A stretch of 64,000 nt of DNA. It comes from Ustulina deusta (taxonomy: Eukaryota > Ascomycota > Sordariomycetes > Xylariales > Xylariaceae). Under the pieces are notes generated by a model. That model was not told the origin of the DNA. It saw only the letters and a list, made by a program, of their open reading frames with translations, and searched no databases. Where the stretch lies: positions 62,001 through 126,000 of the forward strand of contig JAJNNX010000042.1 in the NCBI GenBank assembly GCA_023159155.1. The letters are read 5' to 3'. Position 1 is the stretch's first letter; each line of letters starts with the position of its first letter. Shown here in pieces: positions 25,016 through 62,436 of the stretch. The position numbers were made by a program, and so were the translations under genes.

Positions 25016-27429
25016 CTAGGCGACTTTGCATAGGCTCCTACCCAACCTTAGCACTATGACTTCATCCTCCTCCCCTTTAGTTCCAGGTTGCCCGCGGTTA
25101 CGATATCGGGTTCCCCATATAATTATTCCGGTGCCCTCGATATGATGTGTCCCGCTACCAGTGTCTGAGGCCCATACTAGAATTCTACCACCTAGTGAAT
25201 CTGTATCATTGGCAGCCGCTAACATATACACCCTCCCTAGTGTACTGGCAGACCCCTGGAAACTCACAGACGCATCAGAGGTACCGTTGTCCATCCTTAT
25301 GTTGACAGTGTTGTGATCATGCTGCCACTTTGAACACTTCACTCTATCCTCCATATCCATCTCCACCTCGACAGCCTCACAGATCAGCCTCCCGTTATCA
25401 TCCACTACAGGTCTCAGCGCGTATGTTCAGCTTCATTGCCATTCTTGGGTATCCAGCATGAATTTGGGGAAGTCCCTCCTAAGTCAGCGAGCAACACCTC
25501 GGCACCAAGGGCACCACAACGTACGGCCTCTCGATAGGCATTATCTAAGCTGGAAATTTATTTCGGCAGGAACTGTTCTGTCGACAGCGATAGTCCTAGC
25601 ACTCCGATGATTTTGTCCCGCTTTTTTGCGTATTTCCTGTTATGTGTGCGGTTGAGTAACTGCTTAAGAGGCATCTTAATGCTGGAAATATCGGGTGCCC
25701 AGTTGTGACGGCTGCAGGCCGCCTAACCTCGTATAAAGGGGGTTCTGTAGTTCGCTGACATGCCGTAATCCAATATACTATTTTTGTAACAGTAGAAGGG
25801 CGGCAGCCCAACCTTACATCTCGTAGGGTGCTTCAGTTCTGCTGCGTGTGCTATGAAGTCTAGCTAGCATGCATTTAACCTGGTGTTGGTTTCCGAGTTA
25901 ACAATTTGCGAATTTCTACTTAGATACCCTTCCTGGAAAGTCCACACTTTATCATGCCATGGGTCCTGTCTCCAAGCACTCAAGCCTTGGTAATCACTCA
26001 GATGGCCTGGGATTGCCACCAAGTGCCTACTTGGCTTGGTTAAAGGCACACCAACAACTCGGCGGGCTGGGCAGATAAGAGTGGTATGCGCCCCAGCATA
26101 GTAGCTGCCCATGCGAGATAGCTCAGTGGCCTTCTCGTCATTATCGTCTTGGTTAATGCATAGCTTATCGATCCACAAGCTCGTTGGCCCCCCTACTATG
26201 GCTGCACCATTCTGCATGGAGCATACCGTATCATTTTCGCTGAACGTAGACCACAGATGGGACACCGCAGTGTACCCATTATGTTTGTCAGACGAGCCCA
26301 CGACACGTAGCGGCTGAATTTGGACCGCCGGAGTATGCAGATTCAGCTCACCGGTAACCCAGCAATGAGGACATAGCAGCCGGGCGTGGGCGGATGATAC
26401 CAGCCTCACTGTTGACTGCATTCCACACTCTCGCAGATCAACAAAGCCTTCTCGAACAGGCAGTAGCGTGAGCATTACCTCGAACATCTCCTTCGGCATC
26501 CAGACACTAGCGCCCGAGGGCTTCACTTTTACACGAGAATCAGCAGCTTTGAAGTCGCTCATGGCCGCCACGCCGATGCTTGACGCTAATATATTTCCGA
26601 CCTCCTCGAATTCGCGGACCCATAAGTGCGAGGAACTATTGTGGGAAATGTCCCGCGCGATGAGGCCTACTGCAATGAGCAGTTCCAGAGCCTGCCCGAC
26701 TTGCCCGACGCACCGCAGAAGCATTCGACTCCGCTCGTCGTAGGTGATTGATGATATCGGAGTTTCTTCCACGGCCACAATGACCTCCGTCTTCGTCTGC
26801 GTGTATACCACACCAATAGTGAGCTCGTTGACCATTTCCCACTTCTCCACGGCATCACTGTTTTGCGAATCGGCACTATCGCTAATGAAGATGTTTATGT
26901 TCGTGGTGGCTACCACACGTTCTACGTTCTCTGCGACCCTAAGTAATCGTATTCGTGTTCTGGCTGTATCTTTATCTCCGCCTTTCCCTTTCACAGATTC
27001 CCATACGTCGACCGCTTCGTCTAGTCGTAACGCTTTCCAAGCTCTCTGGCTTTGGGCCGAGGTCAGAGCGCATTCCCGTAGCGCTTCGAGGACCGCTCTG
27101 TTGGACATGGCTGCTAGAAGCGCTTTGTACCGTTGCAGCGCATCCTCTTGGTATGTGTAAGAGGTTGACCCAGTCCAATCGGGCTCTCTCAATGTCAAAC
27201 CCAACTCTATAGCGATGTCAGTCGCATCCTTGTAACGAGGCATCGGATCACATTCGCAATCCAAGATATCCAATCTGCAGTGATGGACCTCCCAGCGGCG
27301 CCCGTTTCGGACAGCCGTTTCCCCCGTAACATAGCTAGTGAGGCGACGGATTGCTTTCCGGACTCGACTAAGAACCTTGGAATACTTCCACGTAACCCCT
27401 ACCGAATTCGCAAGCCTTCTTCTGGACAT
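25016..27429 (-). pseudogene. HET-domain gene with RIP-like stop codons and a frameshift
   Basis: From ATG 27429 the minus strand is open for 521 codons to a stop at 25864. This part contains the heterokaryon-incompatibility (HET) core: GYTAVSHLWSTF, TSLWIDKLCINQDD, ELSRMGSYYAGAH and WHDKVWTFQEGYLSR. The same frame then continues with protein-like sequence (DKIIGVLGLSLSTEQFLP, AYREAVRCGALGAEVLL) but is cut by stops at 25864-25866 (TAG), 25723-25725 (TAG) and 25558-25560 (TAA). Near 25415 the frame shifts into LRPVVDDNGRLICEAVEVEM, which runs to 25016. Each stop can arise from CAG or CAA by one C-to-T change in a CpA context. HET domains trigger cell death when unlike individuals fuse. A truncated protein retaining the HET core could still be made. 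Upstream, 27510-27640 has a protein-like frame (FLHELFFYAKANRLLAIF) that may be a lost first exon. Confidence 0.75.
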
Positions 27430-27507
27430 ATCAGCCTTGTAACAGGGCTTGCGTCCAGGCGGCTCGGCTCCGCTTGACGCGCTTGGCAGTCTTTTGTCGT
27501 GTGGCAA

Positions 27508-30500
27508 ACCCCTATTCTCCAGCCTTGCAGCAGGCGATTACCGGCTTTTCCAAATGCCACAAAAATCGCCAGTAAACGGTTGGCTTTGGCGTAAAAGAAT
27601 AATTCATGTAGAAAGATACGGGTTAGCTGCGGGTGGTGCTTGTTAGCTTCTCTTATTGCCTGAGGCGTGGAGGACCAGAGCATCATTCTCAGCTGCGAGG
27701 TTGGGTGGGTAGCGATGTGAGGGACCAGAGAATCGTCCCTCCGTCTCGCACAAGGGCTCCCATATACATATACGCTGCCGAATGCAAGTTGCGTCCTGCA
27801 TATCAACCAGCGTATGACACACCCTAGTCCTGCTGCGGTGATTATAGTGAGTTCACTAGCCTTCTGATCGGCTGGGCTTCCAAAAAAAAAATATTAGCAA
27901 AGTGAATTTCGGAAGCGTACTAACCACTGTAGACTACATACTAGATGTAGATCTATTACATGTAAACCGCCCTCGCTTCTCTTGTTAGCAGTTAGAAGAG
28001 GTATGTAGGCGTCGGTGACATCCCTGACCTAGTGTACAATCAACCAACCAACCAAATGGCTAGCCGACTGGCTAACCTAGCCAACCTTTACTGGATATAC
28101 GCAGTAGGGTATACGAAGTAGCATGGTCGACGAAATGGATCCCTATAATTGGCTAGCTACATAGCAAGGCTGGTCGTGGTGGTGGTATGGCCGTTCGTCA
28201 AGGTGGGTGGGTGTGTGTATGTGTAAAAATAGGATGGGCTAGATTTCTCCACGTTAGAAGTGGCTGGCTAAGTCTGTATGGCTAGGCCCGGATACTTACC
28301 TAGCATCCCACGATTTCCAGCGCTATCTCAACGGATCTGCTTTGGATTCCCAGTCTAGGCGGGGTCATAAGACTACGCATAAGTACGCTACAAACCTAAC
28401 AAGTTCCATCTTGCCACTGTCTTTCGAGCCAGCGAGTCTCACGAGATGATCGTTATCTTACACAAAGTTAACAACCCCGCCATCTTTCAAATCGTTGCAT
28501 AAGACCAAATCTATGAATGTGTCAGGAAATGGGGTTCCGGAGTGAATAGACAGACCTATCTGCAGTCAGGAAGCATGTAGGTAGTATTTTAGACTCGATA
28601 GAGTAGCCAATCGATTCCTGAACCTCCCAGATATCTAGGGGGGGCTACCCATATACAGAATCCCACTATATCTACTCCCATAGGGTAGGTGTGGTATATC
28701 TCCCTGACAGATTATGAACTTGAGAGTCCTCGAGTCGGTTGATGAGGCTTTAGCTACCTCACTTAGCATCAAAATATTACCCTAATCAGGCTTTGCAAAA
28801 TCGCAGTAAGGCGTACGCGAGGTAATTGTGAAGTGTTTTCATCACTAACTCCAAAAACACCGCTCGCGATAGGGTCTTCAATGTCGTCCGCGTCTCTACT
28901 GGTACGATTAAACACGGCACCGTTTGATATACTATTGCTTGGTCCAATTAGCATACAGGTTATCTCTCCAGGGAAACAGGGAGATTGGAAGAGCGCGGTG
29001 ATGGCCAAAGGTAGAGAGAACACAGCTTCTGATGTCTCAGGTCTCCGAAATGTGCCAGCGTTCGTTCGTATCTCCTCTGTCAAGATCCACGTTTTTGGGT
29101 TCCAAGCAGGCAACTATTGCGCCACCTGGGACTTGTCTGGCCGAAAGTGTAGCCAGTCGACCCCAAAATTCTCCCTTCAGTGTAGCGAGGATATGTACCC
29201 CAGTCATCTCCCGGGAGCAGATATCAGGAAAACCAACCTTGAAGATTACACCTAAATCAATGCATGCTATCGCACAGCATGGATAGGAGAGAAGCTGACA
29301 GTGACTTTCATAGTAGAAGTGAACTTGATTAATACTACTACGGTGTTTTTCTTGGAACGTGACATTCTCTGCTGTCTTTTGGCTGTCTTTTGGCTGCCTG
29401 TTCATCATGTAGCCGGGGCTGTACTTGGATGACTGCTGTGAAAAGGGGCGTAATGCTCATGCTATGATGCCCGTTTGAGGGCAGTGACACCTATCTTGGT
29501 TGGAATCCCCCAGACTTGTATACTGGATTGGGTCTGGCTTGTGACTTCTTACGACACCGACGAAAGTGAAGACTATTTAGTTGGTCCGAGCTTATTCTTA
29601 TAATCTTGCCCTCGAGCAAGGCGCTTGAGAACTTTTGCTGTTCATGTTGAGAATTCACTGACTCTTCATCTCGAGTAGAAAAGTGTAGTCGGATCTTGGA
29701 TATATGTCGATAGTGTCGGCAGCCGACTTGCCCATGAAGAGACCAGAAGTGAGGTATAAATAAGGTTCCTTATAACACTCAGCTAAAGATCGACTTCGCC
29801 CTTTCTCGATAGCCCGAGCCCGACAGTGCTTCAACGGACAGACTCTCTGTTGCACTCATCCGTTCCCATACCAGACTGCGCCGTGTCTTGGTAGAAGTCG
29901 GTTCAACTATCTGTCCGGAAGCTTGTTTTTCTTGCTCGCATTCCTGGGCGGATTTCATACGGTACAGGATGAAAGCTGGGTAGAGGGTGTGAACGAATGT
30001 GTGTATAGCATGTGTCTAGCAGGATGGTGTGTGGCGCAAATGGAGCAGGACTCGGCCTTCCAGCCGTGCTTTGCAAGGGGAGAGCGTCGGCAATTGAGAG
30101 TCTGGCGATCCGCTCTACCCGCCTATACGGTACCGAGACCGACATACATACACTTACCTAACCAACCTAGGCCACTTGGCTGACCTGTTGTGCAGCATTT
30201 ATTATACCCGTGTAATTATCACGCCCCTGACTTGCTAAGTATACTATTTCATCTCGTCACCCATAGGCACGAAAGGAATTACTAGGCTTGTTTGGAGCAA
30301 AACGATCCTTTTCGTTGTTGGAATCAAGAGCGGTTTTGCTCGCTGTCATATACTAATAATAGACTATACATAACTAGACGAAGTGATTATATTAAGACTT
30401 TTATCATTGGTGTTGGAGTAGCTCGCAGGTATATGGGTCCTCCGACTGTCGCATGGGATCCGGAGAGTGCCGAGCATGCTCAGCCACAGTTGGAGTGGTC

Positions 30501-52763: not shown

Positions 52764-55700
52764 CTAATCGAAATTCCCTGACGCTATCACTAAATTCTCA
52801 ACAAGCTTTTTGGCATCGCCGTCCGAATACACCTTGTAATCTGTTTCCCACGTCCGCCTGAGAATTTTCCCCGGGGGTATTTCCGCTCCGTTCGACAGCA
52901 GGGTAGAGTCGGAATGTTTTCCATATTTGCGAAGTTGTAGCTCATTTATCAGATTTGGGAAATACTGGTTACCTGGAAACCAGCAGGATAGGAGGTCTCG
53001 CAGTTTTAGCACACGTCCATTTTCTCTAATACGTTGGTACAGATGTGATGTTTCGTGCATTAAGAGTAGCTTGGTTCCGTAGTCATTATAACCCCTCGGA
53101 CCCTTCCTCGAAAAGGGATCAAATTCTAGTGAAAAGGAGAGAACCTCCCACCCGTCTTTCGGGTTTAGCCATCGCGCCGAATGCGGGCCGCGGGGGATGA
53201 GCTGGCCGATAGTCAAGTCCGGGTCTGCTCCTTGTCGAAGATACCAGTCGGTCACAACGCCGGGGCACCAATTTTCGGGGAACATGTTGATCATGAACAC
53301 CGCAATCAGCATTTTCCACGGTGTCATTACTAGGGAAAAATAGGGCCACGACAAAAAATGAGAGTGGCCTCCATCGTGAAGATTGAAGTCGAGTCCGTGA
53401 CGCAGGAAGTGATCCATAATCATAATGAATTGGTCTTGAGTGAGATGTGACCAGCAACATTTCTGACCGCACCGATAGAACGATAGAAACTCTCCTGTAG
53501 AAACTGAGAATTTGAATTGTGGATAGCTGTTTTGCATTCGTTTCAAGAGCTCTAAACGACCAATTCTAAGCCAAATTTGAGCAAATATCCGAGTCGTCAT
53601 CTCGAGGGAGGCGCCAACCTCTGTAGAAAGTGTTAAAGCGGTTCCTTGAAGAGCCTCGAGAAAGGATATAAAAGTGCTGGATGCGCTGCGTCGTAACTGG
53701 GCGGCTAGGTATGAATAATTGACTATGGCGATTTTCCACACTTGGCCGAGACTCAAGCCGCCATCACTCCCCTTGCTAAAGAAATCCGGACTAGGCCGCT
53801 GATATTCAACACATTGAAGGAGGGCACTACAAGCGTTATCGAAGCAGTCGAAATCACTTATATATGGCGCTGCCATCGTAGCAAAGCTCGGGGTTTCTAA
53901 GAACTCCACGATTGATCTGTGAATGAATACGACTTCTTGTTTCATTGTGGGGCTGTAGAGGGGCTCACGGCGGGCGCACACATGTAGAAACCCCTTACAC
54001 TGCCCGTAGACCTTTTTGTATGTGTTATCTAACCGCTGCATGGCTGTCTTGGGCTCAAGCGTTGATGCCTTCGAGAATGGTACGGCGGCACTACCGTATT
54101 GCATGTCCTCCAAGAACGAGAGCTGTAGAAGGCCTAGCTTAAAGTGTCCCCCGAGCTGAACATAATGGCCGTGAGATTGGAAGAATTGAACCATTTTAAG
54201 GGTTCTGAATGCCCATTTCCGATCTGTTTCATGTATTAAATGCGCCAAATGCAAATATAGGGGATCGAGCTCCGTTGGGTATGCCACAATCCTTTCTTCC
54301 AGTCCACGCAAGCTAGCCCCAGATATTATAGCGTCTTCGATGCTCGCAAGAACGATAGAAACCCATAGAAACACGCCCTCCGCCCGTGTTGTGATGAGGT
54401 TCACGATCGATTGTGACGCTTGATCTGATTTGAAGAGCTCGACGTACTGCGGGTTTGATTTTAGGTGCGTGGACACCATTCTTGCAATATCCGTAGATGT
54501 GAATTCGTGTAAACGGAGTTTGGGATAGGGAGAGAATGACACTTGAAATACGCTGTATTCCCGGCTAGAGACACAGATCTTGAGGACTGAGGAGTATTTC
54601 TCCGTCCAGTTTTTCATAGTGGTTATCAGGTCGAGGTGCCGCCCTTCGAATTCGTCAAGCCCGTCTATGAACAGAACAAACTTGTACAAGCAGGATTGGG
54701 TTGCATGTTTGAGAATGTTATCAAATCCTTGTTGGAAATCGCGATACTCTAGCTCTCTGATGGACGCAGAATGTGTGGATATAAGCTTCCAGAGATCGGG
54801 GAATGCTGTTGGGATGAGATCGCGATTTGTATCGAGTATTGAATGCAAAAGCCCACGAAGAAGGCCTTTAAGACTCTTTTGTGCTGCAGTGCCAGGTTTC
54901 CAGAAGAAGAACTGTCCGCGGCCTAGTTGAGCACCTCCACACCAGACTTTCAGATGACGATTCAAGTCTTTATGGGAGCAAATATATTTCATCATGGTAG
55001 ACTTGCCGGCCCCCAGATTACCAGAGATGTGGAAAAAACCGCTTCCATGTTGAAGCCATGTGACAAAATTCTTTCCAGCTTCCCCTTTAGCGCTGTCATG
55101 ATCGGCGGTGGAATCGAGCAGCCATCGGAGTGTTTCCTTATGAGCATCAGGAATGGTATCAACTCTCTCATGCATATCAGGGAAATGGAGCTTGTCGAGA
55201 ACGACCTGTTCCTCCACCCGAGGATCATGATAACGCTGGACTAATGATTGCAGCGTCTGGGATATCTCTTGGCCAATGTGGGTAAACCCTTTCGTTACGG
55301 ATCGCATACCGGCTAGTTCGCTTTTGATTTTCTGTACATCCTGGTCGATTTCATCTAGCTTCCCATTGAATTCGGTTCTGGGCAAGTCTTAGCTATGTCT
55401 CGCTTTATATATGTCCTGAGAGGGGATAAGTACACGGTGATGTCTTACCTAGAGAGACTGGTCAGATGGAGACTTAGTTGCGTTTTGTACATGTCAAGAC
55501 GTTTTTCGAGTTTACCAATGTCATTTCTCTTAAGTTCGCTTTTCACTATAGCCTTGAACCGTTGCCATCTTGAGTTAGGGTCCATTAGTTCAAGCTCGTC
55601 AAGCACGGCAATCAGCGCCGCAGACACTTTGGCACATTCTTGCGCTAGATTTCCAAGATCCTTATGGCTTTTCGGAAGTTGCTGAGAATTGAGGCTAACT

Positions 55701-55852
55701 GCGAGGGTCTGGAGTCGCCTTGTATCGCTGTTTAGGTCTGGGTCAATGACCCCAAGCTCGCGAAGGTTCCTGCTCTTTTGAAGGAGCTTAAACCCGTACT
55801 CAAGAGCCTGGGCAATATTAGCCGCTACACCAAGAGCAGCAAACCCTTCCAT
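52764..55852 (-). CDS. NACHT/STAND NLR-like protein
   Basis: Exons on the minus strand 55449-55852 and 52764-55377, 1005 residues. The N-terminal helical domain (MEGFAALGVAANIAQALEYG, residues 1-135) is the sort fused to fungal STAND proteins (HeLo-like/NACHT-associated). A coiled-coil stretch follows (EFNGKLDEIDQDVQKIKSEL). The NACHT NTPase has a P-loop at GNLGAGKST and Walker B at LFIDGLDEFE. Downstream, VVFIHRSIVEFLETPSF and a DUF7791-like winged-helix region (WAFRTLKMVQFFQSHGHY) are seen. No ANK, WD40 or TPR repeats are visible at the C-terminus, so the ligand-sensing part is of unknown type. Family members act in recognition of non-self and programmed cell death. The next genes rightward also belong to families rich in that setting. 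Confidence 0.9.
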
Positions 55853-56020
55853 GGCAAATCAGCTTCGAGAGTGAAAATATATCTTGAAGTATGCTTGTAG
55901 TGGCCCTAATGGCTAGCATGCCACTAATAGGAGGACTGGGTCGAGCTTTGGGGGAAATGGAGAGAAAGTGCTGGAGGGGTATCGATGCGGGCGATGCTGG
56001 CTTTTCTGTAGGTTGGACGT

Positions 56021-57003: not shown

Positions 57004-58866
57004 TTACATTGCTGCTAGCATCATGTACGTCGCCTGGATAGGTGCAACAACACCGTTGAAGAAGCTCTGTCGGAACTGGCTGAATTCAAACGTCTTCGTG
57101 ACATCCCGGCCAGGGAACTCGCACCGGAGGCACCGCTGCACCGCATAACCATATGAGTCCCCGGCCTCTAGGTAGATCCTGTCCGTCTGGCGATTTGCTA
57201 TCTCAAAGTCGTCAATTGCGGACGAACGAATACCCAGTGGCGCCGAGGGTCTATCATGTTCCTGGGTCTCCTGGCGAATCTGTTCAAAGGTCGTGTCAAG
57301 AGAGAGTTCGATGAGGAGGATTCCAAGCGCGAAGAGCTCCTTATTTCGGATTTGGCTGCTTTGAAAGCGCTCTGCCTCTGAAGTTGCAGCTCCACGAGTC
57401 GCTGGCTGCTGCTGTACAGTGGATTTGAAGATACATGCTATGGTCGGGTGTTCAGCTAGCTGTCGTGCTGCACCGGTGCCCTCGACGAAGAGCTGGATCC
57501 CGTCTTTGCCGCCCCAGTCTTGACCCATCCAGGGAGAGCCATAGAGGTAGAGGATCGCCCATACTGCCGCAGCTGCTATTGAAAACCGTTGCTTCCTTGA
57601 GAGTGGAACCTGAGATGAAGGCTGTCGGCTCAGCTGCGGCAAACCTAGAAACGACGGGAGTGAGGCAGTCTCCGTGTGTTGAGATGTGGAGGGGATCAAA
57701 TCGATTAGTAGGCGGTTATTACTGGTATCTGGGTCTGGTATGTATCCGGAACCAAGGTTTTTGGCACGTTTGATGTAATCACAGAGGCAGCGTATCTCTT
57801 GTTCCTGGCTTGGAATTGTCTGTGGCGGGGTTGGGGGAGCTAAATACTGTCAGCGGTATTGATGAGATCCTAAGGCAAGCGAAGATGAACGAGGAGGAAA
57901 GCCACTTACTCATGAGAATAGTGAGAGACTGTGTCGACGAGTGTATCTCTTTGCTAGTTGAGAAGAAGAAGAAGCCTTTCAGTTTTTCTCGCTTAGATGG
58001 GGATGGTGCTCGAGGGACCGACGGGAGTATATTCCCACTTATATTTGTGAGTTGCGTGGCACTACTATTACCGGTGGTGTGAAAATTCATCGAAATGTGA
58101 TGCCACTGACTACAATCGTCAGAGGGTATGGTTAACGAGAGTTTATCCGTTGGTGCGATCTTGGAAGCATGCCAATCCAGCCGAATGTTGCCTTTATGCT
58201 CTTGGCAACTGCATGTCCACTTATTGGATAGCATCTCGTGCATTCGTCGATAATCTCGTCGGGCGTTGTCGCAGTTTCGCTGGTTAAACCTAGCTTGGAT
58301 CTCTTCTAGAAGAGGATTCGATTCGTCCGAAGGGATTTCGGCCTTCTCGAATATGTTTTTCAACGCATTATTCCAGTACTGCAGGTCAGCAACTAGTTGT
58401 TCCCTCTCGCTATGACCAAAACTGCGTCGTACTCGCCGCCACTCCCAAGAAATACGGTACTCCGAGTCTGATGTCCACCGTGGCTTCGCCAGGAAGCAGT
58501 TAGCCATGTCACTACAGATATAACTTTCTGCCTTACCTTGCCTTTCATATCTATATCCAGCTTATCCATAGTTTTACCAACGATAGCCTCCATGTTGTCT
58601 ATAATGGCTATAAATTCACCACACTTCGACTTGGAATAGAGTCCGTTGAGGTGCTGCTCGAGTTCCACCCTCGTAGGGTTTACCAGACCGATGTTTCGAA
58701 GCGTCACATCAAGCTGCTCTTGCTGAACGAACATGTGACTGCGAATCATTTTCAGCGTTGATTCATACCTCCAATAGTTCTTTCCTGGTTCAAGGCATCT
58801 CTTGTAGTTATCAAAAGCATAGAGGATGAGAGGAATTCCTCCCAATACAAGACCGGCAACCTCCAT
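57004..58866 (-). CDS. DUF7580-family protein
   Basis: Exons on the minus strand 58537-58866, 57910-58483 and 57004-57839, 579 residues, all in phase. I start at ATG 58866 (MEVAGLVLGGIPLILYAFDN), the usual opening of this family; the frame upstream lacks an ATG. The N-terminal half is helical (WEWRRVRRSFGHSEREQLVADLQYWNNALK). The C-terminal half has the family's degenerate kinase-like signature: EIRCLCDYIKRAKNLGSGYI, AAVWAILYLYGSPWM, RNKELFALGILLIELSLDTT and YAVQRCLRCEF. DUF7580 proteins are abundant in Pezizomycotina and of unknown biochemistry; they are often found near incompatibility-type genes. Divergent from the zinc-finger/PP1-like gene with 387 bases between starts. Confidence 0.88.
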
Positions 58867-59253
58867 TGTTGCCTTAGGGGGGTATGTTGCAATTGAGAGA
58901 CCAGACACAGTGCTCAATAGCAGGGTTGGTGAGTTTTGGTGACCTGTCGGCTGGAGTGAGCGAACAGATGTCAGATGTCAGATGCTACTTGACGCGAACC
59001 TGGGCGCTGAAAGCGGGGGTAAGAAAGGAATGTGGCTGAAGTTCTTCAATAACCAATAGAATCAAAGGTTAGGACATAATGCTTCTTTTTCCAACGCATA
59101 TTCCCGCTTCCTGCTCTTAGAAGCGTTGGGGTTTTTTTTATATATAAACCACAACGTGGTGCTAAGCCCTCGCCGTCACCCACGACACATACCACAAAGG
59201 AGACATAGTGGTTTTGTTTATGTGGGAGGTGCTTTCCTAGGAATTCGCTCTGA
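58867..59253. promoter_or_regulatory. Bidirectional promoter region of DUF7580 and zinc-finger/PP1-like genes
   Basis: 387 bases between two divergent start codons, so the genes may be co-regulated. Contains a short direct repeat AGATGTCAGATGTCAGATG near 58970-58985 and a T/A stretch at 59130-59148. No TATA box can be assigned with certainty. Confidence 0.45.
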
Positions 59254-62200
59254 ATGGCCTCAATTTACAGTGTGTCCAGCGACAATGCTGACTTGGAGCC
59301 AGCAGGTCAGATTACGAGCGGGAAAAGTATCCATGAGACCTTCGTTCGATGCCTTGACCTGTATAGGAGCCTCACATTTCAAATTCTAGACAAGGAGAAT
59401 TCCGAAACAGGAGTGGAGGATGGGGTTGATCTCAATCGTCTAATGGATGAGTTTGGTAGGCTGAGGATATGGGGCGAGCAGACAAAAGCCTCACTTGCAC
59501 CTAAAGCAAGGGCTTCTCTGGACGACTTTCTCCGAAATGAGGAAAGGCTAAATAAAGAAGTCAAGGAAGTTCTAGCACAGCTCGGGACACAGTTATCCCT
59601 AGGTGAGTCATTGTTATCTATACTAATTGAAAGCTGATAACCGACCAGTATAGCTGTGTCAGTCGTGAAAGAAACCGGCCGGCAACATTCAGCCTTGGAT
59701 GGCAACATTTCCGATGGAATGGTATCAGATAGTGACTACTCGTCAGAGAACGGATCAGAAGATAGTATTGATCGGGGGAACGAACGACCGAAAGTATCCA
59801 AACTATCAATTATAGTATCACACATATTTGAACACATCCAGTTACTCTACCACTTCGGGTCCTTACTCCGCCGTCCAGGATTAAAGGGAAGATACTTAAG
59901 GCATAACGATTCTAACAACCTGGACACAGCGACTCTCTTCGATACTTGGCATATTGAGGAGAAGCTTCGTCAATGGTCCCGACAGGCAGGAGAGGGAATT
60001 GTTGTATCGCCCGAAGAGGAAGAGGCTGTGACAGTGCAGAAAATATCCGAAAGGGAAGCAGGTGAATCACCCAAAAGCCTCCACTATGTCCTCTCTCGAC
60101 GGTTCGCAAAAGCCAATGCTCAGAGACGAGAGCAGCTGAAATATTGGACCAACCACCCTTACCAGCTGCATCGTCCTCAAGAGCCTAAGATGAATATGAC
60201 TAAAGGGAAAGCTCTTAAATCTGCGATCCAAAAGCGGCCAAAGAAAGGTGATGCTTCAACAGAAGACGACGTTTCAACAATAAAACCAGAGTCAAAAGGG
60301 CCCAAATCGGAGAAGTCAAGATCTACTACAGCAGTCAGTTTTTCAACAGTAGCAGAATCTGCCCTGTTAGGATCGGGGACGGAGACTGGTAAAGCTCGAA
60401 CAATCTATGCCGAGTCAGTCGTGGCTGGGAAATGGTCGGCTCGAGTACCCCCGCCGCCTAAACGCACGACAGCCATTGACGGACCCGAGCAATATGAATG
60501 TCCATACTGCCACATGAACCTAGATTCGGAGCTAGTGAACCACAGACTTGCTTGGAAGTGAGCAGGAGCCCCCCATATTCATGTTTTATTACTAATTATT
60601 CTTCTAAAGGCGGCATGTATTCCGTGACCTTCGCCCATATTCATGCACCTTCGCGGATTGTTCGAACCCTAACAAAATTTATACAACACGCCACGAGTGG
60701 AAATATCATGAGATGCAGATTCATCGTCGCAGCTGGATTTGTCATGAGTGTAACTTGGGGTTCGAGGAGAAACATGAACTCGTTCAGCATCTACATGAAA
60801 GCCATCCAGGCAATTGGACAGACCGCCAACTCTCAATCATCCTAGAAATGAGTGAACGACCCATGGAAGAGTCAATAATTATTCCGTGTTCACTCTGCAA
60901 GAGTGAATTATCATTGGCTAAGTTACTCGACCATCTTGCAGCGCATATGGAAGAAATATCTCTCTTTGTCTTACCAAACGATTCGGAATTCGATGATGAC
61001 ACCAACTCTAACAATGTAATGGGCACAGACACTCAAGAAAGTGGCGATAAAAGGGAGACATCTCCGCTGAGTAGCCTTCGGTTCTCAGATATTGCGCAAT
61101 CTGATCGTGACGCGCTAGAAGGAGAGGGCTTGATCCCTTTCTTTCAATCACCAACCGCGAGTCTAAGCGATGGGATCAATCTGGTTACTAACGAGGAAAC
61201 CGGTTCTTACACATCTGTCCCGACACTCGACTCGATCCTTGATAAGCTACTCGGAGTTGCGCACAATACTACGGCGGAGCCAACACCCCTCTCCAGGTTA
61301 GAAATTAGGTATCTATGTGCGGAAGCAAAGGAGATTTTCATGTCACAGTCAGTATTACTAGAACTCGAAGCGCCGATAAAGGTGAGCTTCCGATTAAATT
61401 CCTTTTTAAACCCCCGGATCTCCTAACTGGTGCGTTTCAGATATGCGGCGATGTACGAGGGCAATCTCGTGACTTGTTACGATTATTTGAGTCCTGTGGA
61501 TTCCCTCCAGAAGCAAACTACTTGTTTATGGGTAACTACCTTGGTGGAGAGCCGTATGCAGCAACCATATGCCTCCTCCTCGCATACAAGATAAAGTACC
61601 CCGAGAACCTTTTCCTTTTACGAGGCAGTCAAGAAGCCCAGGAGGTGCCGCCGAGATTTACAGAATTTCAAGAATACATGGATGTGTGGGAACCCACAAA
61701 TGACGTATTCCGCTGTTTGCCTTTTGCCGCCATTGTCGATGACAGAATATTTGTCGTTCACTCAGGCTTAAGCCCAGATCTAGATTCGATGGAGCAGATT
61801 AGATGTATCATGCGACCGACTGATGTGGGTGATAGTCGTGTTTACATAGCTGTTTTACTTGAAAATGCTGACTTGATGACTAGGTAATACCTGCCGATCA
61901 TTGGTTTTCCCATCTTGTCTTGGCCAATCCTAGCAAAGCCATCACGGGATGGGCTAAAAACATACGGGGCTCGTGGATATTTGGGCCAGATGTTGTTTCA
62001 AGCTTCCTGCAGAAACATGATCTACAACTCATATGCAGGTCACATGAAATGGTAGAAGGGGGCTATGAGTTCTTCGCGGAAAAGCAACTTGTCACCGTCT
62101 ATAGCGTCCCGAGCTATCGTGACATAGATGTCGGTGGGGGTGCTGTCATGTGTGTCGATGAATCCCTCGTGTGCTCCTTTCAGGTAATTCTCTGTTTGTA

Positions 62201-62436
62201 TTCGTTTCAAGCTTGTATTATGGGGTGGAGGGCTTACAACACCATAGATGTTATCGCCAAAGCAGCAATTAAGCTATTCAATATTGATGAATGACCTAGA
62301 GAGCTCACCACCAGAGAGTCCACAGCCAGAGAGCTCACAGCCAGAGAGCTCGCGGCCAGAGATTTCACAGCCGAAGGGGTTTCGGCCGGCCAGATCGAAT
62401 GCTTACAAACGGCTTTTCAATCGATCGGGTCGGTAA
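59254..62436 (+). CDS. C2H2 zinc-finger protein fused to a PP1-like pseudophosphatase
   Basis: Exons 59254-59602, 59654-60557, 60610-61381, 61441-61824, 61884-62183 and 62248-62436; 965 residues, all phases closed. Residues 1-390: helical N-terminus (SGKSIHETFVRCLDLYRSLT) and HIFEHIQLLYHFGSLLRRPG. Residues about 397-530: fungal-type zinc fingers (ECPYC, CTFADC, WICHECNLGFEEKHELVQHL, PCSLCKSELSLAKLLDHLAAH, then SLFVLP), as in proteins linked to STAND/incompatibility systems. Residues about 644-905: PP1 fold (LLELEAPIKICGD, TICLLLAYKIKYPEN, HSGLSPDLDSMEQI, FLQKHDLQLICRSHE, VDESLVCSFQ). Catalytic motifs are changed: GDxHG is GDVRG, GDYVDRG is GNYLGGE, GNHE is GSQE. The tail is PESSQ repeats. Expected to lack phosphatase activity while keeping much of the regulator-binding surface. 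Confidence 0.88.
62296..62370 (+). repeat. Five tandem 15-base units encoding PESSQ-like repeats
   Basis: Variants of CCAGAGAGCTCACAG repeat five times in frame within the last exon of the zinc-finger/PP1-like gene, giving a Pro/Glu/Ser tail. The copy number may vary between strains. Confidence 0.85.

Follow-up and report, generated by a model that had tools for sequence, protein, structure and literature searches.

A 64,000-nucleotide stretch of the Ustulina deusta genome (contig JAJNNX010000042.1, positions 62,001 to 126,000; hereafter the window, with positions counted from its first letter) carries two adjacent genes that point away from each other. The gene on the + strand (59254–62436) encodes a C2H2 zinc-finger protein ending in a PP1-like domain from which most catalytic residues appear to be lost, and the gene on the − strand (57007–58866) encodes a DUF7580 protein. 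This divergent DUF7580 partner of zinc-finger genes of this family, found beside the gene that the original prediction had described, is the main new result of the analysis. Eleven such pairs were observed in the genome.

Divergent pairs of DUF7580 and zinc-finger genes

The partner gene in the window consists of an N-terminal exon starting with MEVAGLVLGG and a DUF7580 exon; the exon joins are provisional. The DUF7580 profile, PF24476, matches positions 57007–57849 with an E-value of 9.2e-15 (55.5 bits, with the cut-off at 27). The two genes are divergent neighbors with 387 bp (58867–59253) between their start codons, and they form a head-to-head pair.

A search of the whole genome with the PF24476 profile produced 11 matches, one of which is located in the window (57031–57813, − strand), upstream of the zinc-finger/PP1 gene and pointing away from it. 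A search with a Nemania relative of the zinc-finger protein (P0004) revealed further loci of the zinc-finger family, and this list interlocked with the list of DUF7580 matches at eight places. With three further queries, two with zinc fingers and one with an N-terminus, the lists grew to 13 DUF7580-type loci, 15 zinc-finger loci (the one on contig C56 being weak) and 11 pairs; these counts are lower bounds, as the best candidates only were scored. Eleven of the 13 DUF7580-type loci have a locus of the zinc-finger family at most 6 kb away, and all 11 pairs are divergent. Under uniform placement, the probability of finding at least 11 of 13 loci within this distance is ∼3e-26, a rough value given that the loci were gathered by following matches. 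Nine of the pairs come from the PF24476 genome search; for the C34 pair the evidence is a later Pfam match (30 bits, cut-off 27) and for the C33 pair the N-terminus only. The distance between start codons, which were chosen by eye, is 224–438 bp in 10 of the 11 pairs (387 in the window and 360, 344, 357, 224, 335, 298, 438, 398 and 241 in the others); the C36 pair reads 1998 bp across an unread stretch. In this species the pair is, almost beyond doubt, a true unit of the genome.

One zinc-finger frame of this genome (C66) matches the cell-death domain HeLo (PF14479) at 19.3 bits, below the cut-off of 23.2, and PF14479 is not among the 25 most frequent of the 182 families counted over 49 members. 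The C37 partner (L011:1459–3387, + strand, from ∼82.4 kb) has DUF7580 fused to Peptidase_S8 (E-value 1.9e-14), and S8-like motifs can be recognized by eye in the partner region of C36.

Gene model and catalytic residues of the PP1-like domain

The six exons of the zinc-finger gene (59254–59602, 59654–60557, 60610–61381, 61441–61824, 61884–62183 and 62248–62436) make a single open frame of 965 amino acids, and relatives of like architecture exist. All five introns are of the GT-AG type, have lengths of 51–64 bp and contain a CTNAY-type branch motif. In the protein, a helical N-terminal module (approximately residues 1–276; 59254–60132, exon 1 and part of exon 2) is followed by a block of C2H2 zinc fingers (residues ∼395–545; 60487–60991, end of exon 2 and exon 3) and by the PP1-like domain (residues ∼630–903; 61244–62183, end of exon 3 and exons 4 and 5). 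The last exon (62248–62436) codes for a tail with PES repeats, in which the Pfam scan found no domain. The N-terminal module is made of mostly confident helices in AlphaFold2 models of the relatives P0004 and P0144 (the window protein itself was not among the models); a Foldseek search with it against PDB yielded no match at E ≤ 0.001, and structure comparison produced no clear kin. The zinc-finger block is recognized by its Cys/His motifs; PF26082 stands as a precomputed label on the closest relative, P0001, which is 94–96% identical to the window protein over the shared part. No NACHT or NB-ARC domain was detected in the 965-residue protein by the Pfam scan.

The proposal that zinc fingers are joined here to a PP1-like domain was borne out. 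The spliced frame is open throughout, and deposited proteins from several genera contain both parts. Exon 3 by itself leads from the zinc fingers, with no stop on the way, into the N-terminal segment of PP1; the joint is therefore hardly a modeling artefact, and separate genes for the two parts find no support. The sequence motifs, too, lie where the original prediction had put them (GDVRG at residue 678, GNYLGGE at 706, GSQE at 737, HSG at 782, CRSHE at 854, YEFF at 864 and SLVCSFQ at 897).

Pfam identifies Metallophos (E-value 1.4e-25, residues 673–860) and STPPase_N (E-value 3.4e-14, residues 624–671), and the nearest solved structure by sequence is yeast PP1-2 (E-value 6e-100). The likeness to PP1 lies in sequence matches and in a fold predicted for the relative P0004 only. 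In comparison with a fungal PP1, to which it is 58% identical, the domain keeps D64, H173, R221, H248 and Y272 and has the changes H66R, D92N, D95G, N124S, H125Q and D208N along with a gap at R96. Thus, among D64, H66, D92, R96, N124, H125, H173 and H248, which we take to be the metal and phosphate residues of PP1, four (H66, D92, N124 and H125) are replaced and R96 is missing. The prediction of a pseudophosphatase is well supported by sequence; with a confidence approaching certainty, the gene is real and its catalytic residues are lost.

The ordinary PP1 gene of the same genome, which lies on contig C1, shows splice donors at codon boundaries behind EAPIK, RPTD and CSFQ; the window gene is interrupted by introns at all three of these places. 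Intron 3 (61382–61440, after EAPIK) agrees with the canonical intron in position and phase, intron 4 (61825–61883, after RPTD) agrees in position, and intron 5 (62184–62247, after CSFQ) starts at a donor position of the canonical gene. The three shared positions indicate copying at the DNA level, and it is very probable that the PP1-like domain came from the genomic DNA of a PP1 gene. When the genome was searched with the domain, 17 stretches matched, including the window gene, the PP1 gene (C1) and a PPZ gene (C50); we read the remaining ones as more distant phosphatases.

Over 278 codons, the window domain and the PP1 of its own genome differ with a proportion of nonsynonymous differences (pN) of 0.26 and a saturated proportion of synonymous differences (pS) of 0.90, a part of the synonymous change belonging to the canonical branch. 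When the 334 observed nucleotide differences were placed randomly on the genome's own PP1, 9.5 stops arose on average, and none of 2000 trials remained stop-free. The pN and pS values and the stop-free frame speak for long selection on frame and fold, with the limit that the comparison takes in the constrained canonical branch. Judging by identities, the domain is a fast-changing one: the window and Xylaria arbuscula domains are 63% (core) and 53% (C-terminal half) identical, and the genome's own PP1 is 95–99% identical, exon by exon, to a PP1 from Tolypocladium.

To characterize the loss across the family we scored 15 proteins, drawn from among the matches listed, which have the N-terminal module and/or the zinc fingers together with enough of the PP1 domain: the window protein and those of Xylaria, Nemania (two), a Nemania-like fungus (P0007, zinc-finger part only), Phialemonium, Glutinoglossum, Rhypophila, Hypoxylon, Fusarium (four), Echria and Monosporascus (N-terminal module only). 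None has the intact PP1 site that recent decay would imply, and D92 is Asn in every one of them; the loss would thus be neither recent nor private to the window. Where aligned, A247 and C273 are never kept, and R96 is kept once (P0018, the alignment there being unsure); position 66 is His in eight proteins and Gln in two. The substitutions vary between lineages, and the least altered form, Rhypophila P0158, is changed at two of 12 catalytic positions (D92N and R96Y).

For a conservation test we used 165 positions that are at least 90% constant among 104 canonical PP1s and drew random sets for comparison. The canonical residue is retained in 91 of 172 cells at catalytic positions, versus 1510 of 2001 at the other invariant positions, and only 0.18% of random sets were this low. 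Positions assigned to the RVxF groove are kept in 89 of 112 cells, and 25% of random sets were as high. Catalysis so appears to have been given up specifically, and the RVxF groove appears not to be specially guarded. The original prediction had the groove preserved: this describes the window protein, which keeps seven of nine canonical-invariant groove positions, but over the 15 proteins a preservation beyond that of other invariant positions is not supported.

Varied C-terminal ends and other PP1-like fusions

A PP1-like domain is one of several ends found in this family. The frames that follow the zinc fingers on the same strand in this genome contain PP1 (window), ankyrin repeats (C37, 79 kb; the join is provisional) and TPR (C113), and the C33 frame has a marginal ankyrin repeat. 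Pfam produced no match for the frames read at C36 and C34 and only weak zinc-finger matches for the C58 protein (P0144). We also tallied, by precomputed labels, 53 relatives among the matches listed, namely the 43 of one search and ten more; a few lack PF26082 itself. Fifteen have PP1 (the P0001 and P0013 models keep only its beginning), nine have TPR and two have ankyrin repeats; PB1, kinase, DEP, WD40, SH3, NACHT, PHD and PF26118 occur once each, and 19 are unlabeled. The share of PP1 in this tally is inflated because ten of the proteins were chosen for their PP1 domain. P0019 from Nemania abortiva is 72% identical to the window protein over 51% of its length but has PB1 at the C-terminus. 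As far as the sequences tell, the family is a fixed part with exchangeable ends.

Degraded PP1-like domains are present in other fusions as well. In Flavoplaca P0043, a heterokaryon incompatibility (HET) domain (E-value 5.3e-26) is joined to one with N92, Y96 and R273 (N-Y-A-R); a Phialocephala protein has another N-terminal region and other catalytic losses, and Penicillium P0109 has a PPZ-derived domain with D92G and D95N. In P0043, which sits on a contig of 5,779 bases, the two parts are connected by a Q/E/R-rich linker; P0109 shows the reversed order, its PPZ-derived domain being followed by a stretch that by eye resembles the helical module.

We built a tree of 57 domains and applied approximately unbiased (AU) tests to groups named after the tree was seen. 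A single clade for the module-linked set was not rejected, whether or not it included the HET fusion, and a single clade for the fungal and plant N92 forms was disfavored (AU p 0.0101). A single clade for all fungal fused forms was rejected (AU p 0.0006). The combination of N92, Y96, S or G at 247 and R273 was observed in eight of 168 aligned sequences, five from plants (P0066, P0073, P0077, P0187 and P0202) and three from fungi (P0106, P0158 and P0166), which stand apart on the tree. Judging from the residues involved, the four substitutions would take away negative charge where the metals are lost and shift an arginine. The plant proteins P0066, P0073 and P0077 also bear kinase-domain labels.

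The original prediction had placed the zinc-finger architecture near STAND genes. A NACHT-type gene (52767–55858, − strand; NPHP3_N, E-value 6.6e-20; DUF7791, E-value 6.5e-11; a weak SesA match in the first exon) does lie beside the pair, at ∼52.8–55.9 kb, but the zinc-finger gene has its linked partner in the DUF7580 gene. The window also contains a HET domain gene (25867–27537, − strand, E-value 6.3e-12).

Proposed function and alternatives

We propose that the gene belongs to a repeated unit of two genes. In the half that it represents, a helical module and a C2H2 zinc-finger block would carry an interchangeable C-terminal domain, and the divergent other half supplies a short N-terminal domain and DUF7580. 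The C-terminal domain would be the part that recognizes, and the PP1 copy, disabled to avoid disturbing phosphorylation, would be bait for something that binds PP1 or its complexes, be it a molecule of a competitor or parasite or a self/non-self ligand. Binding would be relayed through the zinc-finger and helical part to the DUF7580 partner, and a defense or cell-death response would be triggered or restrained; a shared promoter may keep both partners in balance. A role in recognition or defense is, in our judgment, slightly the more probable case. That the two genes make up a recognition system whose baits can be swapped, one of them being a dead PP1 that acts in immunity or as a decoy, comes near to an even chance, and the use of PP1 as bait is a reasonable possibility somewhat short of that. 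The decoy or scaffold role suggested earlier, which we still infer, is strengthened by the repeated divergent pairs with varied C-termini and by the degraded PP1-like domains in HET and other fusions. Judging by their titles, the PDB entries 8pq7 and 9nb9 show PP1 bound by a plant-pathogen effector and by a viral protein.

Several observations weigh against this proposal. Over the 15 proteins, the RVxF groove is not kept beyond general conservation. The pairing was counted in one genome, where two of the 13 DUF7580 loci (C69; C30, 229 kb) and four of the 15 zinc-finger loci (two on C41; C34, 496 kb; C56) are unpaired. No known death domain was assignable to the N-terminus of either partner. 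The zinc-finger frame of C66 does not extend beyond its first finger, and at C113 (L040, ∼902.8 kb) one in-frame stop separates the zinc-finger frame from the TPR frame, so that this copy may be broken. Deposited models disagree as well: P0001, a 714-residue protein from another U. deusta strain with 13 differences from the window protein in the first 660 residues, leaves the frame at intron 3 and lacks the PP1 core, and the Nemania models P0013, P0004 and P0006, by our reading, stop or are scrambled near intron 3 or 4, with loss of the core or of the C-terminal half.

Around 61340–61440 there are possible rival donors for intron 3, an upstream GTCAGT (deduced from the protein sequence of P0001) and GTGAGC at 61382. 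The upstream donor, if used, would lead to a 714-residue form without the PP1 core.

Could the zinc-finger gene and a PP1-like gene have been wrongly joined, as the P0001 model might suggest? We hold this to be extremely improbable given the stop-free exon 3 and the like order of parts in deposited proteins of several genera. The truncated or frame-shifted models (P0001, P0013, P0004 and P0006), the substitutions that differ between lineages and the damage at C113 and C66 are also what one would see if a once useful PP1 fusion were being lost and its C-terminal part were now functionless. Such decay is quite improbable: the 280-codon domain of the window is stop-free where random change would bring ∼9.5 stops, pN stays far below the saturated pS (with the constrained canonical branch included in both), and the domains of P0007 and P0002 reach over 288 and 251 of ∼290 positions (P0002 without the end).

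The dead PP1 domain may, on the other hand, compete with real PP1 for SDS22, inhibitor-3 or RVxF proteins and so tune PP1 signaling, the zinc fingers serving as an anchor. H66R would then mimic the engineered H66K PP1, which is without the M1 metal and stays bound to SDS22; however, His or Gln occupies position 66 in 10 of the 15 proteins, the RVxF groove has no special conservation, and both the other C-terminal domains of the relatives and the DUF7580 pairing would be left unexplained. We regard this role as unlikely. Another alternative sees in D92N, R96Y, A247S/G and C273R a re-built site, with the arginine moved from 96 to 273, which would bind phospho-ligands or stabilize a metal-free fold. 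The joint occurrence of these residues in plant and fungal forms that are apart on the tree, along with N-Y-A-R in the Flavoplaca HET fusion, is in line with it; still, in the window protein position 96 is a gap, with N92, S247 and R273 at the other three; additional losses are seen in most module-linked proteins, and residue 273 can be R, N, Q, K, E or G. There is little probability that this alternative is the right one.

The proposed recognition unit has partial parallels. The PP1 catalytic subunit (Glc7/BimG, of the PPP family) shares with the window domain its sequence, intron positions and a fold predicted for a relative, but in the window the metal and phosphate ligands are replaced and the domain is fused to a zinc-finger module. 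Zinc-finger proteins labeled PF26082 or ‘acuF-like C2H2 type’ have the same N-terminal module, zinc fingers and a variable C-terminus, to which the window adds a dead PP1 domain and a divergent DUF7580 partner. PHLPP2, an animal pseudophosphatase, presumably differs in belonging to another phosphatase family and in having no gene pair. What it has in common with the window domain, for which this is a prediction, is a phosphatase fold without activity (PMC12002173). Plant NOD-like receptor (NLR) sensor/helper pairs with integrated decoys, as treated in PMC12258605, likewise have close head-to-head genes and a host-protein-like domain on one partner, but in the window neither the zinc-finger protein nor those exons of the partner that were read showed a nucleotide-binding domain. 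The same text describes fungal NLRs with TPR, ankyrin, WD40 and kinase C-termini, similar to the ends found here, although the window protein is not an NLR; it discusses their non-canonical zinc fingers and kinases as possible decoys and reports 13 head-to-head NLR pairs, which it terms rare in Sordariales. The word DUF7580 is absent from the main text of that paper.

In its fullest form, the proposal would describe a new NLR-free two-gene system of Ascomycete fungi, in which a DUF7580 protein is paired divergently with a zinc-finger adaptor, the C-terminal sensor of the adaptor changes among repeats, kinases and captured host proteins, and a silenced PP1 is a recurrent bait through N92, Y96, S/G247 and R273, convergent in plants and fungi; in this form it is possible, though doubtful. 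The divergent DUF7580/zinc-finger pairs offer a search rule for candidate baits across fungi, and the PP1-like domains are a natural set of metal-site substitutions for probing what PP1 regulators recognize. If confirmed, the finding would extend fungal immunity and allorecognition by a recognition system that is paired, modular and not of the NLR kind, and would suggest that PP1 is among the things that fungi guard.
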